Shown here one piece after another: positions 46,769 to 57,169 of a stretch of 64,000 nt of DNA (the stretch's first letter is position 1; each line of letters opens with the position of its first letter). The translations under genes and the position numbers were made by a program. Source of the DNA: Verrucomicrobiaceae bacterium E54 (GTDB taxonomy: Bacteria; Verrucomicrobiota; Verrucomicrobiia; Verrucomicrobiales; Akkermansiaceae); contig JAKZES010000002.1 in NCBI GenBank assembly GCA_022548915.1, forward strand, positions 62,001 through 126,000, given 5' to 3'. The notes beneath the pieces were generated by a model. The model was not told the origin of the DNA, made no database searches, and saw only the letters and a list, made by a program, of their open reading frames with translations.

Positions 46769-46967
46769 GGATTCCGGCAATGGTGGAGATTAAGGAAGAC
46801 CCTACGGTGACAACCACGGAACCCTACGCGTTTCCTGCCAATTCCTGTGCAACGGGGGCCCTACCTCGGACCGGATGTGAAAGCAAGCAGGAGGCTCCAT
46901 CGTCTCAACAAAGGCCCGAAGCCTCTTGGCAATGCCCGGACATCACACCAAGATCCACCCCAAGCCC

Positions 46968-48308
46968 ATGATCCGCACCTTGCTCTTTCTTCTCATCTTC
47001 GTCGCGCCACTCCGCGCCGAGAAGCCGATGAACGTCGTCCTGCTCTTTGCCGACGACTGGCGCCACGACACGCTCGGCGTCGCCGGCAACCCCGTCGTCC
47101 GGACGCCCCACCTCGACCGGCTCGCCGGCCAGGGGATCCGCTTCACCTCGAACTGCGTGACCACCTCGATCTGCGGGGTCAGCCGCGCCAGCCTCTACAC
47201 CGGCCAGTGGATGGCGCGCCACGGATGCCGCGGTTTCACGATGTTCAAGACACCGTGGGAGGAGACCTACCCGGCCATCTTCCGGAAGAACGGCTACCAC
47301 ATCGGCCACGTCGGCAAGTGGCACAACAAGCCATTCCCCAAGAACGCCTACGACTTCGCCACCGTCTACCACGGCAGGCACTGGTACAAGCTCGAGGACG
47401 GACGCCGCGTCCACGTGACCCAGCGCAACGAGGAGGACGCGCTCGAGTTCCTGCGCACCCGCCCCAAGGACAAGCCCTTCCTGCTCAACGTCTGCTTCTT
47501 CGCCACCCATGCCGAGGACGGCCACAAGGATCAGTTCCTCCCCCAGCCGCAGAGCATGAAACTCTATCAGGACGTCACCGTTCCCGTGCCGCCGAACGCG
47601 ACGCAGGAATCGTGGGAGCGCCTGCCGGATTTCTTCGACGAGGAAAACGAGGGCCGCAACCGCTGGCATTGGCGCTTCGACACGCCGGAGAAATACCAGC
47701 GGATGATGAAGAACTACTACCGCCTCGCGACCGAGGTCGACGCCACCTGCGGCAAGGTGATCGCCGAACTTGAGAAGCAGGGCGTGCTCGACAACACGCT
47801 GGTCGTCTTCACCACCGACAACGGCTACTACCACGCCGAGCACGGGCTGGCCGACAAGTGGTACCCGCACCAGGAAAGCATCCGCGTGCCGCTCATCATC
47901 CGCGACCCCCGCATGCCGAAAGCGAAGCACGGCACGACGAACGACGCGTTCACCCTCAACGTCGACCTCGCCCCGACCTTCCTCGCCGCCGTCGGCCTGC
48001 CGGTGCCGAAGGGCATGCAGGGGAAAAACCTCGCCCCGCTCTACCTCGCGGAGAAGGCCCCCGAATGGCGCGACGAGTTCTTCTACGAGCACCCGACCCT
48101 GCGCGACGCCGACTTCATCCCCGCCTCCGAGGCACTGGTCCGCAAGGACTGGAAATACTTCTACTGGCCCGAGGCCGACCTCGAACAGCTCTTCAACCTC
48201 ACGGCCGATCCGCGCGAGGAAAACGACCTCGCCGACGATCCGCAGCACGCCGACCAGCTCACGGAGATGAGGGAGCGCTTCCGCGAGCTGAAGGCGGCGG
48301 CGAAGTGA
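46968..48308 (+). CDS. Secreted type I sulfatase, CGVSR variant
   Basis: A 446-residue sulfatase with a signal peptide from the ATG at 46968 ([17 protein letters not shown]). Metal-binding elements are [11 protein letters not shown] and the C-terminal [26 protein letters not shown] is in the usual place. The formylglycine site reads [12 protein letters not shown], with Cys69 and Arg73 but Val in place of the usual Pro/Ala at the third position of C-x-(P/A)-x-R. Related planctomycete and verrucomicrobial sulfatases with C-x-x-S-R are known, so it may well be active. It resembles the heparan/iduronate-type subgroup in its C-terminal metal motif. The substrate is unknown. A long inverted repeat follows the stop. 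Confidence 0.92.
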
Positions 48309-51174: not shown

Positions 51175-52356
51175 ATGAAGATTGAGCGGGATCTGGCCCG
51201 AGAGTTGACGGAGGCTGCGGCGCGCCTGCCGATCGTCACGGTGGTGGGTCCGCGCCAGGCCGGGAAGACGACTCTGGTGAAGGCGGTTTTTCCGGACCGG
51301 ACCTACCGCACGCTGGAGGATCCGGACGTGCGTGCGTTTGCGGTGGAGGATCCCCGGGGGTTTCTCAAGGAGGTCGAGGATGGAGCGGTGCTGGACGAGA
51401 TCCAACGCGTGCCGGAGCTGATGTCCTATCTGCAGGGGATGGTCGATGCCGACCCGACGCCGGGCCGGTTCATCCTGACCGGCTCGCAGCATTTCCTGAT
51501 GATGGAAAAGGTGAGCCAATCGCTCGCGGGCCGCACCGGGATCCTGACGCTGCTGCCGCTGAGCGTGCGCGAGCTGGCCCGGTCGGGCGTCCGGGACCCG
51601 GGCACCGATGAACTCATGCAGCGCGGCTTCTATCCCCGGCTCCACGAACGCCCGCTGGATCCCTATCCGGTGTTGCGCGACTACTTTGCGACCTACGTCG
51701 ATCGCGACGTGCGACAGTTGCTGAAGGTCCACGACCTGATGGCCTTCGAGCGTTTCATGCGCCTGTGTGCCGGTCGCGTCGGCCAACTTCTCAACCTCAG
51801 CTCGCTGGCCGTCGATGCGGGGATTTCCGCCACCACCGCCCGCGAGTGGATCGGGCTGCTCGAGACCAGCTTCGTGCTCTTCCGCTTGCCGCCGTGGCAC
51901 GCCAACATCGGCAAGCGGCTGATCAAGACACCCAAGCTCTACTTTCACGACGTGGGCCTGGCCACCTGGCTGTGCGGCATCGAGGAGGCGGGTCAGCTTG
52001 CAAGCCACCCGCTGCGCGGCGCGTTTTTCGAAAACATGGCGATCGGCGAGTTGCTCAAGTCGCGCACCAACCGCGGGCGCGACCACCGCCTGCTCTTCTT
52101 CCGTGATCGGGCCGGGCACGAGGTGGACGCATTGCTGCCGTCCGGCCCCCGGCTGCTGCCGGTCGAGATCAAGTCGGGCCGCACCCTTCGCGGCGAGTGG
52201 TTCGCGGGCTGCGCCGGCCTGGACGCGCTTGCGGGCGATTTCCTGCCCACCGGCGTGGTGATCTACGGGGGCGATGAGATCCAGCGCCGCAGCTCCGGAA
52301 CGGCCTGCGGACTCTGGCAGCTCGACGAAGTCCTCCACGAAACTCTCGGTGCCTGA
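51175..52356 (+). CDS. ATPase of the DUF4143 family
   Basis: A 393-residue P-loop ATPase of the AAA-like family with a C-terminal DUF4143 domain. Walker A is VVGPRQAGKTTL (residues about 23-34), Walker B is in GAVLDEIQRVPEL (about 69-81), and sensor-like FILTGSQHF follows. The C-terminal part has the pattern LPVEIKSGRTL, resembling a restriction-endonuclease-like core (E-x-K). Such proteins are common in mobile or accessory regions; their role is unknown, although some are suspected to act in defence or toxin-antitoxin-like functions. The ATG at 51175 has no Shine-Dalgarno before it; transcription may start just upstream (leaderless). There is no partner gene beside it. Confidence 0.92.
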   Translation: MKIERDLARELTEAAARLPIVTVVGPRQAGKTTLVKAVFPDRTYRTLEDPDVRAFAVEDPRGFLKEVEDGAVLDEIQRVPELMSYLQGMVDADPTPGRFILTGSQHFLMMEKVSQSLAGRTGILTLLPLSVRELARSGVRDPGTDELMQRGFYPRLHERPLDPYPVLRDYFATYVDRDVRQLLKVHDLMAFERFMRLCAGRVGQLLNLSSLAVDAGISATTAREWIGLLETSFVLFRLPPWHANIGKRLIKTPKLYFHDVGLATWLCGIEEAGQLASHPLRGAFFENMAIGELLKSRTNRGRDHRLLFFRDRAGHEVDALLPSGPRLLPVEIKSGRTLRGEWFAGCAGLDALAGDFLPTGVVIYGGDEIQRRSSGTACGLWQLDEVLHETLGA

Positions 52357-52415: not shown

Positions 52416-53981
52416 ATGAAAGCCATCATCATCCCATCCCTCATCGCCGCCCTCGCACTCCCGCCGCTCGCGGCCGAACCCATTCAGGTCTTCATCCTCG
52501 CCGGTGACGAATGCGTGTTGGAAGAGGGCGTGGTCGCGGCCGACGACAAGCCGGGGACGCTCGAAAAGGTCGTCGCTTCGAATCCGGATTACGCCTTCCT
52601 GAAGAAGGATGGCGAGTGGATCACGCGCGACGACGTGTTCGTTTACGACGCCCATCCGATCCACAACAACACCGAGGCCCCCGCCCGGCCGCTGCGGGTC
52701 GTGACCGATTTCCAAAAGGGCGGCGAGAAGGGCCCGCGGATGGGAGTCGACCTGATGCTGGGTCACACGCTCGGTGAGGCCATCGAGGAGCCGGTGATGA
52801 TCTTGCGCTTCGCGACGCGGCACCCCACTTGGTTCAAGCGCGGCTCGCGCGACCTTTCCCACGACTTCCGTCCGCCCTCCAGCGGCGGTGGCAATGATCT
52901 CGACGGAAGCTGGGACGTGATCCACTTCAACTTCGGCGTCTGGGACGCGACCTACCGCGAGGCCTCGTCGAAGTATTTCTCCGGCGTCAACACGACCTCG
53001 CCCGAGGACTTCGAAAAGAACCTGCGCACGCTGGTGGCGAAGATGAAGAAGACCGGAGCGACGCTCATCTGGGGCAGTGTCACCCCGGTCTGGGAAGGTG
53101 AGGAGGGCAAGCCCAACGGCGACGAGGATGCCTACAACCGGGTGGCGGAGAAGGTGATGAAGGAGAACGGGGTCATCATCAACGACCTCAACGCCGAGAC
53201 GCGGCGCCAGGGCAAGGGAACCGGAAAGAACGTCCACAACGTCGGCAATCTCGCGCCAAAGGTGACCGAGACCGTGCTCGCCGCGCTCGAGGCGCGCGAG
53301 AACCCGACCCAGCCGCTGCCGCGCGTCCTCTTCATCGGCGACTCGATCACCGGCACCTACTGGAAGGCGGTCGAGCAGAACCTCGACGGCAAGGCGGTCG
53401 TCTTCAAGAACCCCGGCAACGGGGAGGACACCTGGAACGGGCTCGACCGGATGGACGAATGGCTCGAACTCGATCGCTACCTGCTCAACGGCCAGGCCTA
53501 CCTCGAACTGGTCGATGCGGTGAAGAAGGCCCTCGGCGAGGAGCTGGAGCGGGTCTTCCCGGGAGACGTCAGCCAGGGTGCCGAGCTGGCCGGGCTGGTG
53601 TGGTTCCAAGGCATGGAAGACGGCGGATGGGAATCCAAAGCCACCGAATACGAGACCCACCTTGCCAACCTCATCCGCGACCTGCGCAAGGATCTCGACG
53701 CCCCGGAACTCCCGGTCGTCGTCGGCGCCCTGGCCCGCAGCGACGGCAACATGACCCCCAACCAGCAGAAGGTCTTCGACGCCCAGATGGCGGTCGGCGA
53801 CCCGGAAAAACATCCGGAGTTCAAGGGCACGGTGCAAAGCATCGACACCCGCCCGATGTGCCGTCCGGCCAAGGAGTCTCCCGGCGGCCGCGACCGCTAC
53901 AAGGGCCACGCCGCATCCTACCTGGAGATCGGAAAAGCGATGGGCGAGGCGATGGTGGAGTTGCTCAAGCAAGAGCGTTGA
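52416..53981 (+). CDS. SASA esterase with inserted, circularly permuted SGNH domain
   Basis: A 521-residue secreted protein; the ATG at 52416 gives a signal peptide MKAIIIPSLIAALALPPLAA. The outer part is a SASA-type acetylesterase domain: VFILAG (24-30), DLSHDFRPPSSGG (146-158), then after a long interruption YLELVDAVKKAL, LAGLVWFQGMEDG (391-403) and the C-terminus. At its nucleophile site the usual GQSN is replaced by GDEC, so that Ser is missing. The interruption (about 162-355) reads like an SGNH hydrolase in swapped order: SWDVIHFNFGVWD and TLIWGSVTPV with NVHNVGN (His274) first, then VLFIGDSITGTYW with Ser310 and NGLDRMDEWL. In ordinary SGNH proteins the GDSI block comes first. The activity probably rests on Ser310, inferred. 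Annotated enzymes of these types deacetylate glycans. Confidence 0.75.
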   Translation: MKAIIIPSLIAALALPPLAAEPIQVFILAGDECVLEEGVVAADDKPGTLEKVVASNPDYAFLKKDGEWITRDDVFVYDAHPIHNNTEAPARPLRVVTDFQKGGEKGPRMGVDLMLGHTLGEAIEEPVMILRFATRHPTWFKRGSRDLSHDFRPPSSGGGNDLDGSWDVIHFNFGVWDATYREASSKYFSGVNTTSPEDFEKNLRTLVAKMKKTGATLIWGSVTPVWEGEEGKPNGDEDAYNRVAEKVMKENGVIINDLNAETRRQGKGTGKNVHNVGNLAPKVTETVLAALEARENPTQPLPRVLFIGDSITGTYWKAVEQNLDGKAVVFKNPGNGEDTWNGLDRMDEWLELDRYLLNGQAYLELVDAVKKALGEELERVFPGDVSQGAELAGLVWFQGMEDGGWESKATEYETHLANLIRDLRKDLDAPELPVVVGALARSDGNMTPNQQKVFDAQMAVGDPEKHPEFKGTVQSIDTRPMCRPAKESPGGRDRYKGHAASYLEIGKAMGEAMVELLKQER

Positions 53982-54259: not shown

Positions 54260-54484
54260 ATGGAAACCATCTCCCTGCACGAAGCCAAAGCGAGGCTGTC
54301 GAGCCTCGTTTCCGAAGTGGAAAAGAGCGGAGCTAAGATCGTCATTTCCCGCTATGGGAAACCGGTTGCCGAAATCTCCCCGATCCGGAAGCGGAAGCGG
54401 ACCCAGATCGACTCGAAGCTTTCAAAGGTCACGGTAAGCGGCGACCTTACCGCGCCAACGAGCGACGAGTGGGACGATGTCTGA
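54260..54484 (+). CDS. Phd/YefM-family antitoxin
   Basis: A 74-residue antitoxin. METISLHEAKARLSSLVSEV followed by VISRYGKPVAEISP is the typical Phd/YefM N-terminal DNA-binding domain (residues 1-50), and the acidic end TAPTSDEWDDV would bind the toxin. The ATG at 54260 fits the family start; the longer frame beginning at 54212 would start within the promoter. The gene overlaps the PIN toxin by eight bases, as usual for such operons, and a perfect palindrome lies directly before it. Confidence 0.92.
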   Translation: METISLHEAKARLSSLVSEVEKSGAKIVISRYGKPVAEISPIRKRKRTQIDSKLSKVTVSGDLTAPTSDEWDDV

Positions 54485-54866
54485 CAACCTGCTGCTCGAC
54501 ACCTGCGCATTGATCTGGCTCGCCACCGGCAGCCGCAAACTGAGCGCGGACGCCAAGAAGCGCATCAATGCCGCTCCTCAGGTATTCGTGTCCGCAATCA
54601 CCGCTTGGGAGATCAGCCTGAAAAGCGAGCGCGGCGACCTCACACTTCCCGAAGAGATGGAGCAATGGTTCCCGAAGGTTCTGCTTCAGCACGATCTGGT
54701 TCTCGCCGACCTCACTCCTGAAATCCTCATCGCCGCCAACCGTCTCCCCTGGCATCATCGCGACCCAGCCGACCGCTTCATCCTCGCCACCGCCCAGCTA
54801 CGAAGGCTGACCATCGTGACCGGAGACAAACGCTTCAAAGCCTACGCCATCCCCGTGGTCGGGTGA
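54477..54866 (+). CDS. PIN-domain toxin
   Basis: A 129-residue PIN-domain ribonuclease. Acidic positions are Asp in LLLDTCALIWL, Glu in AITAWEISLKSERG, Asp in HRDPADRFI and Asp in TGDKRF. The pattern W-H-x-R-D-P-x-D-R is typical for the PIN toxins that pair with Phd-type antitoxins. The ATG at 54477 overlaps the antitoxin end. The RNA target is unknown. This pair is unrelated in sequence to the one at 25.1-25.8 kb except for the PIN fold. Confidence 0.93.
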   Translation: MSDNLLLDTCALIWLATGSRKLSADAKKRINAAPQVFVSAITAWEISLKSERGDLTLPEEMEQWFPKVLLQHDLVLADLTPEILIAANRLPWHHRDPADRFILATAQLRRLTIVTGDKRFKAYAIPVVG

Positions 54867-54876
54867 TGCTCCAACC

Positions 54877-54906
54877 ATTCGTGCGAATTCGTGTCCATTC
54901 GTGGTT
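54877..54906. repeat. Three 10-bp repeats of ATTCGTGnnn
   Basis: ATTCGTGCGA, ATTCGTGTCC and ATTCGTGGTT stand in exact 10-bp register between the toxin gene and the next sulfatase. Sequences of this kind are widespread in bacterial intergenic DNA. They could be a degenerate repeat relic; a binding site on one face of the helix is possible. Confidence 0.6.
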
Positions 54907-54929
54907 CATATCTTTCCAAACATGTGAGC

Positions 54930-56267
54930 ATGATCCGCCACTCCATCATCGCCCTCACGCTGGCCGCGGCCGTTCATGCCACGCCGCCGAACATCATCCT
55001 CATCATGGCCGACGACCTCGGCTACGGAGACCTGGGCTGCTACGGCCAGAAGGCGATCGAGACGCCGCGCCTCGACCGGATGGCGGCGGAGGGGAGAAAG
55101 TTCACCCAGTTCTACGCCGGCTCGACCGTCTGCGCCCCCTCGCGCAGCGTGCTGATGACCGGACTTCACACCGGCCACACGACCGTGCGCGGCAACGCCT
55201 CGAAGCACGCCGGCGTGAAGGGCCTCGGTGGCGCCACGGGACGTGTGCCCTTGAACGACGAGGACGTCACCATCGCCGAGGTCCTCAAGCAGGCCGGCTA
55301 CGTCACCGGCATGACCGGCAAGTGGGGCCTCGGTGAACCGGGGACCAGCGGCGAGCCGAATGCCCAGGGCTTCGACGAGTGGTTCGGCTTCCTCAACCAG
55401 CGCCGCGCCCACAACCACTACCCGGACTACCTGTGGAAAAACCGCGAACGCGTCCCGATGCCGGAAAACGAAAAAGCCGAGAAGAACTACAGCCACGACC
55501 GCTTCACCGACTTCGCCCTCGACTTCGTGCGCCGCCATCGGGACCAACCGTTTTTCCTCTACCTCCCCTACTGCGTGCCGCACGACCACTACCAGCTGCC
55601 TCCCGACGACCTCCGCTACATGGACCGGGATTGGACGAAGGACGAGAAATCCCATGCCGAGATGGTCACGCGCCTCGACCGCGATGTCGGGCGCCTTCTC
55701 GATCTGCTGGACGAGCTCAAGCTCAGCGAAAGGACGGTCGTCTTCTTCTGCTCGGACAACGGCGCGGCCCGCCGCTGGGAGGGCCGCTTCGACAGTTCGG
55801 GCGAATTGCGCGGCCGCAAGCGCGACCTCACCGAAGGCGGGTTGCGCAGCCCGATGATCGTGCGCTGGCCGGGCACCGTGCCCGCAGCGACGGTCAGCAC
55901 CGCTCCTTGGTGGGCCGCCGACATCCTGCCGACCTGTGCCACCCTGGCCGACGTGGATTCCCCCGCCGGCCTGGATGGCGCAAGTGTGGTCCCCCTCCTC
56001 ACCTGCGGTGGCAATGCATTGGGAGAGCGCTCATTCTACTGGGAATTCCACGAGCGCGGTTTCCAGCAGGCCGCCCGCATCGGTGACTGGAAGGCCATCG
56101 TTCACGGCCCCGGCAAGCCGCTCGAACTCTACCACCTCGCCGAAGACCCCGGCGAAACCAAAAACCTCGCCGCCACACACCCCGCCGAGGGCGGGCGCTT
56201 GCGGGACTTCATCGAGGGCGCCCGCACCGAATCCAAGGCATGGCCACAGAAGCCCGGCTCCCGATAG
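54930..56267 (+). CDS. Secreted type I sulfatase
   Basis: A 445-residue sulfatase with signal peptide MIRHSIIALTLAAAVHA from the ATG at 54930. Metal-binding PNIILIMADDLGYGDLGCYG (residues 20-39), formylglycine signature VCAPSRSVLMTG with Cys68, GKWGLG, and FCSDNGAARRWEGRF with the C-terminal metal ligands are all present. It belongs to the arylsulfatase A/GALNS-like group. The substrate is unknown; it probably removes sulfate from extracellular glycans. A hairpin follows the stop and a SASA acetylesterase comes next on the same strand, which may deacetylate the same kind of polymer. Confidence 0.94.
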   Translation: MIRHSIIALTLAAAVHATPPNIILIMADDLGYGDLGCYGQKAIETPRLDRMAAEGRKFTQFYAGSTVCAPSRSVLMTGLHTGHTTVRGNASKHAGVKGLGGATGRVPLNDEDVTIAEVLKQAGYVTGMTGKWGLGEPGTSGEPNAQGFDEWFGFLNQRRAHNHYPDYLWKNRERVPMPENEKAEKNYSHDRFTDFALDFVRRHRDQPFFLYLPYCVPHDHYQLPPDDLRYMDRDWTKDEKSHAEMVTRLDRDVGRLLDLLDELKLSERTVVFFCSDNGAARRWEGRFDSSGELRGRKRDLTEGGLRSPMIVRWPGTVPAATVSTAPWWAADILPTCATLADVDSPAGLDGASVVPLLTCGGNALGERSFYWEFHERGFQQAARIGDWKAIVHGPGKPLELYHLAEDPGETKNLAATHPAEGGRLRDFIEGARTESKAWPQKPGSR

Positions 56268-56315
56268 CGGGCCTCCGATGACGGAAGCCCTCCAGCATGG
56301 AGCGCCGGACAACGC

Positions 56316-56337
56316 CGGTCCCGTTCATGCGGGACCG
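56316..56337 (+). terminator. Hairpin after sulfatase gene
   Basis: CGGTCCC (56316-56322) and GGGACCG (56331-56337) form a 7-bp stem with loop GTTCATGC, about 50 bases after the sulfatase stop. There is no T-run, so its terminator role is uncertain. A REP-like GGAGCGCCGGACAACGCCGG segment lies just before it. Confidence 0.4.
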
Positions 56338-56413
56338 ACTTTCGAAACCGTGGGGCCACCCCCCGCCGTCCACCTGCCTTGACCCGAAGCCCCGGTCTGC
56401 GAGGATTGCAGGC

Positions 56414-57169
56414 GTGCTGAAAATTCTTCCCTGCCTCCTCGCCGCCCTTGTCGCTGTCGCCGTCCCGGCATTGGGAAAGCCGCCCCAGCCACAGGACCAA
56501 CCCCAGGTCTACCTCCTCATCGGTCAGTCGAACATGGCCGGGCGGGCGAAAATGGAGCAGGCGGACACCGAGCCGATCGAGCGCTGCTTCCTGCTCAACG
56601 CTGACGACGCGTGGGAGCCGGCGGCCAACCCCCTGAACCGCCATTCGACCATCCGCAAGGGCCTCGGGATGCAGAAGATCGGCCCGGGCGCCAGTTTCGC
56701 CCAAGCCATGGCCGAGAAAAACCCCGAGATCACGATCGGCCTCGTGGTCAACGCCAAGGGCGGCACCAAGATCGGGCAGTGGAAGCGCGGGACGAAATTC
56801 TACACCGAGGCGGTCCGGCGCACCCAGGCCGCCCGAAAAAACGGGACACTCAAGGGCATCGTCTGGCATCAGGGTGAAAGTGACGGAGGCGCTCCGGAAG
56901 GCTACCTCGACGCGCTCGCCCAACTGATCGCCGACCTGCGCGAGGATCTCGGCGTCGCGGACCTGCCCTTCGTCGCCGGACAGGTGAAGGACCTACCGGC
57001 CATCAACGACCAGATCGCCAAGCTCCCCGACACGGTCGAGCACACCGCCTTCATTTCATCCGAAGGGCTGAAGACCACCGACCGCTGGCACTTCGATGCC
57101 CCGAGCGTCCGCCTGATGGGTGAGCGCTACGCCGAGGCGATGATCCGATTGCAGAAGGCCAAACGGTGA
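56414..57169 (+). CDS. SASA-family sialate O-acetylesterase-like protein
   Basis: A 251-residue secreted esterase. The GTG at 56414 gives signal peptide MLKILPCLLAALVAVAVPALG. VYLLIGQSNMAGRA carries the nucleophilic Ser of the SASA family (PF03629), NAKGGTKI and KGIVWHQGESD are the other conserved blocks, and WHFDAPSVRLMG near the C-terminus holds the catalytic His. The length is normal. The enzyme would remove O-acetyl groups from a glycan. It follows the sulfatase by about 145 bases and is intact, in contrast to the aberrant SASA/SGNH protein at 52.4 kb. Confidence 0.9.
   Translation: MLKILPCLLAALVAVAVPALGKPPQPQDQPQVYLLIGQSNMAGRAKMEQADTEPIERCFLLNADDAWEPAANPLNRHSTIRKGLGMQKIGPGASFAQAMAEKNPEITIGLVVNAKGGTKIGQWKRGTKFYTEAVRRTQAARKNGTLKGIVWHQGESDGGAPEGYLDALAQLIADLREDLGVADLPFVAGQVKDLPAINDQIAKLPDTVEHTAFISSEGLKTTDRWHFDAPSVRLMGERYAEAMIRLQKAKR

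Follow-up and report, generated by a model that had tools for sequence, protein, structure and literature searches.

A candidate circularly permuted SGNH domain nested in a SASA-type esterase of Verrucomicrobiaceae bacterium E54

Layout of the gene and its product

The window analyzed here is a stretch of 64,000 nucleotides from contig JAKZES010000002.1 of Verrucomicrobiaceae bacterium E54. An open frame on its forward strand (positions 52416 to 53981) encodes a protein of 521 amino acids plus the stop, designated P0001. In a preliminary description, this protein had been read as a SASA acetylesterase that has lost its nucleophile and is interrupted by SGNH motifs in swapped order, and all the motifs on which that reading was based are found at the expected residues of the translation. 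The features of the gene are the following:

52416..53981, + strand: whole gene, an open frame with relatives that have the same segment order
52416..52478, + strand: probable Sec signal peptide, residues 1 to 21, judged by eye
52479..52889, + strand: SASA N-terminal part, residues 22 to 158, from an ordinary-SASA HMM and alignment
52890..53483, + strand: insert, residues 159 to 356, a putative circularly permuted SGNH domain, from HMM and an AF2 model of residues 156 to 360
52905..53300, + strand: C-terminal SGNH half, first in order, residues 164 to 295, from an ordinary-SGNH HMM
53313..53474, + strand: N-terminal SGNH half, second in order, residues 300 to 353, from the ordinary-SGNH HMM
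53478..53972, + strand: SASA C-terminal part, residues 355 to 519, from the ordinary-SASA HMM, with the Pfam SASA match at 358 to 460

The signal peptide was recognized by a hydrophobic start and an LAA end before EPIQVF, and the protein is probably secreted. In the N-terminal SASA part, which has no PA14-like segment in this protein, block I is dead and reads GDEC (residues 30 to 33), with Asp31-Glu32 in place of the Gln-Ser of GQSN, the block II region is RGSRDLSHDFRPPSS, and the DFRPPSSGG motif runs up to residue 158. The C-terminal SGNH half contains block III (Asn172, within WDVIHFNFGVWD, residues 166 to 177) and block V (N272-V-H274), and the N-terminal half contains block I (GDSI, with the presumed nucleophile Ser310) and block II (NPGN, with Gly334). 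In the C-terminal SASA part, block III is WFQG (LAGLVWFQG, residues 391 to 399) and block V is RDRYKGHAASY, without the catalytic His. Pfam SASA matched one stretch, corresponding to the C-terminal half of that family (residues 358 to 460, 56 bits versus a cutoff of 24.8), while Lipase_GDSL_2 matched in two stretches, the best being residues 162 to 265 (39.8 bits versus a cutoff of 32.9). Among the five permuted proteins scanned, the latter family fell just under its cutoff in P0006 (31.6 bits) and L114 (32.0 bits). A scan of NCBIfam gave no match.

Directly upstream of the esterase gene and on the same strand is a gene for an AAA_14/DUF4143 ATPase (51175 to 52356), and a small PIN-domain gene (54477 to 54866) is located between the esterase gene and the next sulfatase gene (54891 to 56267). 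The window also holds another sulfatase gene (46926 to 48308) and an ordinary SASA gene (56297 to 57169).

A rare family with a constant order of segments

At least 15 related proteins were found in ten genomes, 14 of them with the complete succession of four segments described for P0001. Two members each were found in the window's own genome (G000), UBA6015 (L002 and L003), G294, G357, and G749, and one each in G066, G331, G251, G697, and G742; in most genomes the best three or four candidates were scored, and a copy could be missed. Thirteen members are complete. One G749 copy is truncated by a contig edge just past block V, and the permuted gene of G251 (L073:8032-9846) has in-frame stops (two reported), which might reflect either a decaying copy or sequence errors.

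At an E value of 1e-80, matches were obtained in 8 of the 260 genomes searched in the window's family, one of them being G745, with a SASA protein that has no insert; the 17 other genomes of the window's genus gave none at this threshold. With the same E value, matches were found in one of nine genomes of the order of G697 and, at the class level, in 1 of 384, the window's own. The order search at 1e-45 gave matches in 32 of 386 genomes, six of which had permuted proteins and the others ordinary SASA proteins, as judged by short matches, and the phylum search at the same threshold in 4 of 387, of which two encode permuted proteins. Other phyla were scanned with just six exact peptide patterns of P0001. 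Plasmids gave no match, and the viral contigs contained neither permuted nor SASA relatives, with eight loci of ordinary SGNH proteins. The permuted family is rare.

The window's genome is a draft in 255 contigs, and the gene might for that reason be suspected to be an assembly or recombination artifact of one genome. This reading is refuted because the homologues keep the order, with the whole arrangement in fourteen proteins from ten genomes and its first half in the fifteenth, and with frames that are open except for the stops of the G251 copy and the contig edge of the G749 copy; we regard it as extremely improbable.

The insert interrupts a SASA domain

An HMM trained on 44 ordinary SASA proteins matched P0001 on both sides of the insert. 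The outer N-terminal part corresponded to profile positions 149 to 247 (57.8 bits), with block I matched very weakly (positions 2 to 23, 1.8 bits), and the outer C-terminal part to positions 254 to 418 (4.1e-58, 189.8 bits). Removal of the insert from P0001 gave a single SASA match over the joint (254.9 bits), and the same result was obtained in 13 of 13 complete members. Across these proteins, the profile stopped at positions 244 to 250 in 12 of 13, running on to 279 in L105, and resumed at positions 252 to 256 in all of them. This continuity after excision agrees with the nesting proposed in the preliminary description, which the profile matches show at the level of sequence. The insert would occupy the SASA loop that follows block II (DFRPPSSGG) and precedes the helix ahead of block III, a site that in ordinary SASA proteins is a short loop, e.g., 11 residues between DFRPPSSGR and YQLML in L075.

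Circular permutation of the inner SGNH domain

Relatives of the permuted family included 23 ordinary SGNH proteins, and an HMM was built from 21 of them, the two truncated ones being left out and no permuted protein being included. Given the whole of P0001, this HMM started and ended within the insert and matched in the swapped order that had been proposed, first residues 164 to 287 (profile positions 56 to 188, 8.7e-37, 122.7 bits) and then residues 300 to 353 (profile positions 3 to 56, 1.2e-15, 52.6 bits). The two pieces meet at one profile position, in agreement with the joint between the D-x-WL and WDVIHFN segments at which the preliminary description had located the break. When the insert was joined to itself, a single match covered positions 3 to 189 of 195 (181 bits), and five of five shuffled inserts gave no match, which puts the arrangement well outside what chance would produce.

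The break was found at profile positions 54 to 57 in all 13 complete members, and the doubled insert gave a single match across the joint in every one, from positions 3 to 4 up to 175 to 193 of 195. In about half of them the match ends at 175 to 179, and block V is therefore matched there by reading only. In a search with the half profiles, the halves were in natural order in 23 of 23 ordinary relatives, separated by 1 to 4 residues in 21 and by 7 and 12 in the other two. The block order is N-H-S-G in all 13 complete members, versus S-G-N-H in the SGNH family, and these comparisons establish the permutation at the level of sequence. In the arrangement that we propose, the C-terminal half would come first and would be followed by a linker of about ten residues, connecting the old C terminus to the old N terminus, and by the N-terminal half, with N172-H274-S310-G334 as the resulting order. 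The new termini are neighbors in ordinary SGNH proteins, so a domain permuted in this way would be easy to fit in a loop.

Structural models and the alternative of two hybrid domains

The AF2 model of residues 156 to 360, obtained with a 21-row alignment, contained five strands and had a pLDDT of 82.9 and a pTM of 0.86, this one model's pTM being what places the N-terminal half on the C-terminal half. The alignment was made with unpaired halves of ordinary SGNH proteins, leaving out block V of the ordinary rows, and modelling the insert without the SASA parts favors a nested-domain outcome. The prediction supports the insert being one compact domain. The full-length model from four sequences (pLDDT of 44.8), in which the outer SASA parts were poorly modelled, was not used.

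The best Foldseek match was the SGNH protein 4h08 (8.5e-4), the only one below 0.001 among the matches listed. The other listed matches with a probability of at least 0.95 were SGNH esterases, such as Axe2 and AlAXEase, and the unrelated ShosT was at rank 4 with a probability of 0.85. VIA-align placed model residues 8 to 137 mostly on the C-terminal halves of its matches, with Z values up to 8.9, which is what sequential aligners would be expected to give on a permuted fold; unrelated folds were close behind (a phosphatase at a Z of 7.7), and a Z near 8 is possible by chance. AlgX-type structures were not among the 50 Foldseek or the 50 VIA matches listed, an absence that carries no weight. 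Both comparisons of the model favor an SGNH fold without proving it, and the sequence HMMs do so better.

The SASA domain is itself of the SGNH fold, so the succession SASA-N/SGNH-C/SGNH-N/SASA-C can also be read as two tandem hybrids, which is the main rival to nesting. Two tandem SGNH-fold domains would have swapped halves at the block II/III boundary, producing the reciprocal hybrids A (SASA blocks I and II plus SGNH blocks III and V) and B (SGNH blocks I and II plus SASA blocks III and V). The SASA insertion point and the SGNH break are indeed nearly equivalent places in the same fold, and a natural-order SGNH-SASA fusion exists (L076). Moreover, Pfam GDSL matches, all below the curated cutoff, span SASA block II into the C-terminal SGNH half in P0006 (residues 286 to 433, 0.0086) and L114 (159 to 297, 2.1e-7) and the N-terminal SGNH half into the C-terminal SASA part in L116 (404 to 539, 0.052). 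However, neither hybrid has a complete catalytic set, and yet the SGNH parts keep their Ser, Gly, Asn, and His across the family while the SASA nucleophile is lost; in addition, the insert modelled alone is compact, and the ordinary-SGNH HMM was confined to it in P0001. The compact model, and the retention of the inner catalytic set alongside the loss of the host's, also disfavor the contrary outcome named in the preliminary description, that of a tandem pair of truncated domains lacking a common core. We consider a swap of halves unlikely. With Ser310 in hybrid B and Asn172 and His274 in hybrid A, activity would need a site common to both domains, and interdigitated SASA/SGNH hybrids with a composite site across their interface, Ser coming from one and Asn/His from the other, seem to us quite unlikely. 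It is, in our judgment, likely that the active site lies within one inner domain.

Decay of the host site and conservation of the inner one

Residues were counted in 12 aligned proteins, with block I of G697 read separately and three more proteins included by reading. The GQSN of SASA block I is replaced by GDE in 15 of 15 members, meaning that SASA has lost its oxyanion Gln as well as its nucleophile, and the loss claimed for P0001 extends to all its relatives. The block V His is found at its column in one of the 12 aligned members (P0006) and is absent from the window protein; a His is present two residues further on in G331, G294a, G251, and G742 (the last by reading). Ordinary SASA open frames have GQSN in 44 of 46 cases, with no such motif in two, and the block V His in 46 of 46 (40 by pattern and 6 by eye). 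In the inner domain, Asn (15/15), [DN]VH (15/15), GDSI (14/14), and the block II Gly (14/14) are kept. These alignments show that the host nucleophile is lost and the putative inner catalytic residues are conserved.

One claim of the preliminary description does not stand. It had expected the usual Asp three residues before the SGNH His, found Lys271, and considered the triad uncertain. In this SGNH group, the acid is instead located two residues before the His (D/N-x-H), and Lys271 therefore does not indicate that the triad is damaged. At that position the window protein has N272, and of the 15 members four carry Asp and 11 carry Asn; in the 21 of 23 ordinary relatives with block V covered, it is Asp in 18, Asn in two, and Lys in one (by eye). 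The predominance of Asn and the dead host site would suit a pseudoenzyme, with both domains inactive and the protein binding glycans. However, the insert has retained its Ser, Asn, His, and block II Gly wherever these positions are covered, in 14 to 15 proteins, Asn is also used by the two ordinary relatives just mentioned, and CE20 enzymes are described with Asp/Asn in a water-mediated triad (PMC12313940). A pseudoenzyme is, in our view, very unlikely.

The reading that we prefer, to which we assign a probability of about 0.8, is that catalysis passed to a circularly permuted SGNH domain (N-H-S-G) nested in SASA and that the site of the host degenerated. Ser310 would be the attacker of the ester, activated by His274 with Asn272 (Asp there in relatives), and the oxyanion hole would be formed by Asn172, Gly334, and the Ser backbone. 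The host SASA domain, having lost Gln-Ser and mostly the His, would act as a scaffold and possibly in substrate binding.

Phylogeny and the likely state before insertion

In quick trees, the 13 complete members fell on one branch with their outer SASA parts (SH-aLRT of 100) and also with their inner domains put in natural order (SH-aLRT of 99). The subgroups L035/L038/L039, L072/L074/L106, and the window protein with L001, L066, and L105 were found in both trees, which disagree on the place of L040 and on the nearest partner of the window protein. Because the single branches and subgroups recur in both, the trees fit one origin followed by joint inheritance of the outer and inner parts. The subgroup of the window protein comes from three families (f1, f6, and f29), so some horizontal movement is likely. 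In a tree of the N-terminal half (50 columns), the permuted group enclosed two SGNH proteins of the ordinary type, versus none in the tree of the C-terminal half, where the support of the group was 94; the halves might thus have different parents. An ordinary SGNH gene of G357 (L072:1638-2375), located a few kilobases away from a tandem pair of permuted genes and from an ordinary SASA gene, encodes an N-terminal half, but not a C-terminal half, that groups with the permuted family.

A PA14-like segment is present in nine of the 15 members and absent from the window protein, G697, one G749 and one G294 copy, G742, and G251. The absences fall in two subgroups beside members that carry the segment (G251 is not in the tree), and the segment was therefore probably lost more than once. 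The idea of a deletion unique to the window copy was dropped, since five other members also have no such segment.

Two SASA proteins of G745 (L112:2127-3674 and L113:1795-3618) have the PA14-like segment in common with the permuted family (Pfam PA14 in L113 scored 21.0 bits versus a cutoff of 24), but they have no insert, and their GQSN and GHHY are intact, unlike those of the permuted proteins. G745 gave the highest SASA_N match among ordinary SASA proteins (6.2e-83, the next being 2.2e-35), with a SASA_C score no higher than that of the others. A long-branched pair also belongs to the fork that joins G745 to the permuted group (support of 86), and the position of G745 as sister is therefore likely rather than certain. 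These proteins likely represent the state before insertion.

Comparison with known systems

Circular permutation in SGNH proteins is already known from AlgX, AlgJ, and PatB1 (DHHW), with the block order H-S-G-N and a D-x-H block V in AlgX/AlgJ (PMC9487903, PMC4148444). The break lies between blocks III and V in AlgX/AlgJ, whereas in the window family it lies between blocks II and III (N-H-S-G), and block III of AlgX/AlgJ has Tyr in place of the Asn found here. In the accessible parts of these sources, nesting in another SGNH-fold domain, as proposed for the window family, is not described for AlgX, AlgJ, or PatB1. The permuted SGNH enzymes recognized in the literature searched, part of which was accessible, were those of a review, AlgJ/AlgX, and WssI, and no recognizable case of this break point and nesting was found in that literature, which mostly excludes subscription papers. 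Since permutation itself is known, the new architecture claimed in the preliminary description narrows to the break point and the nesting; its interpretation as a whole is supported.

In CE20 enzymes, an ancillary domain interrupts the SGNH-fold domain, and there are a D-x-H motif and a water-mediated Ser-His-(H2O-Asp/Asn) triad (PMC12313940). The permuted family resembles CE20 and SASA (PF03629) in its SASA host, a discontinuous SGNH-fold domain, and several members resemble CE20 in carrying the PA14-like segment after block I. Unlike in CE20, the host nucleophile and oxyanion Gln are lost, and what is inserted between blocks II and III is itself an SGNH domain carrying a catalytic set of its own. 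The inner domain has both halves and the IGDSI, WDVIHFNWG, and DVH motifs of ordinary verrucomicrobial GDSL_2-type SGNH proteins (such as L031 and L083) and of PDB 4h08, which, in contrast to the permuted family, are contiguous, un-nested, and in the natural order S-G-N-H. The natural-order SGNH-SASA fusion of G035 (L076:1761-3557, 599 amino acids), with GGLS for GQSN in SASA block I (by eye), is another pairing of both domains with a degenerate SASA site. In L077, L078, L080, and L081, a natural-order SGNH domain is C-terminal to an apparent sulfatase (by eye).

Possible function and significance

The protein is probably a serine esterase, most likely an O-acetylesterase that takes part in breaking down complex glycans, and its family and gene neighbors suggest that the activity would be on carbohydrates. 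GH29 alpha-L-fucosidase genes adjoin the permuted gene in four of the 14 loci searched (L001, L035, L003, and L116); none is within reach of the window's permuted gene, which is one of the 14. As for the substrate, a fucose-containing polysaccharide that is acetylated and sulfated is no more than a plausible guess. Large DUF6288 proteins are also encoded near permuted genes in three genomes (L070:13638-17273, assigned by similarity only, L071:1185-4784, and L075:9279-12437).

For the annotation of genomes, these proteins are a warning, as they match SASA despite a SASA site without a nucleophile. The family would extend the permuted SGNH hydrolases by one more block order. It also provides an apparent natural case of a permuted enzyme domain inserted into an enzyme of the same fold, where it may have assumed the catalytic role as the site of the host decayed. 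As an intact host type survives in a related genome, the order of events (insertion, takeover, decay, and loss of the PA14-like segment) is testable.
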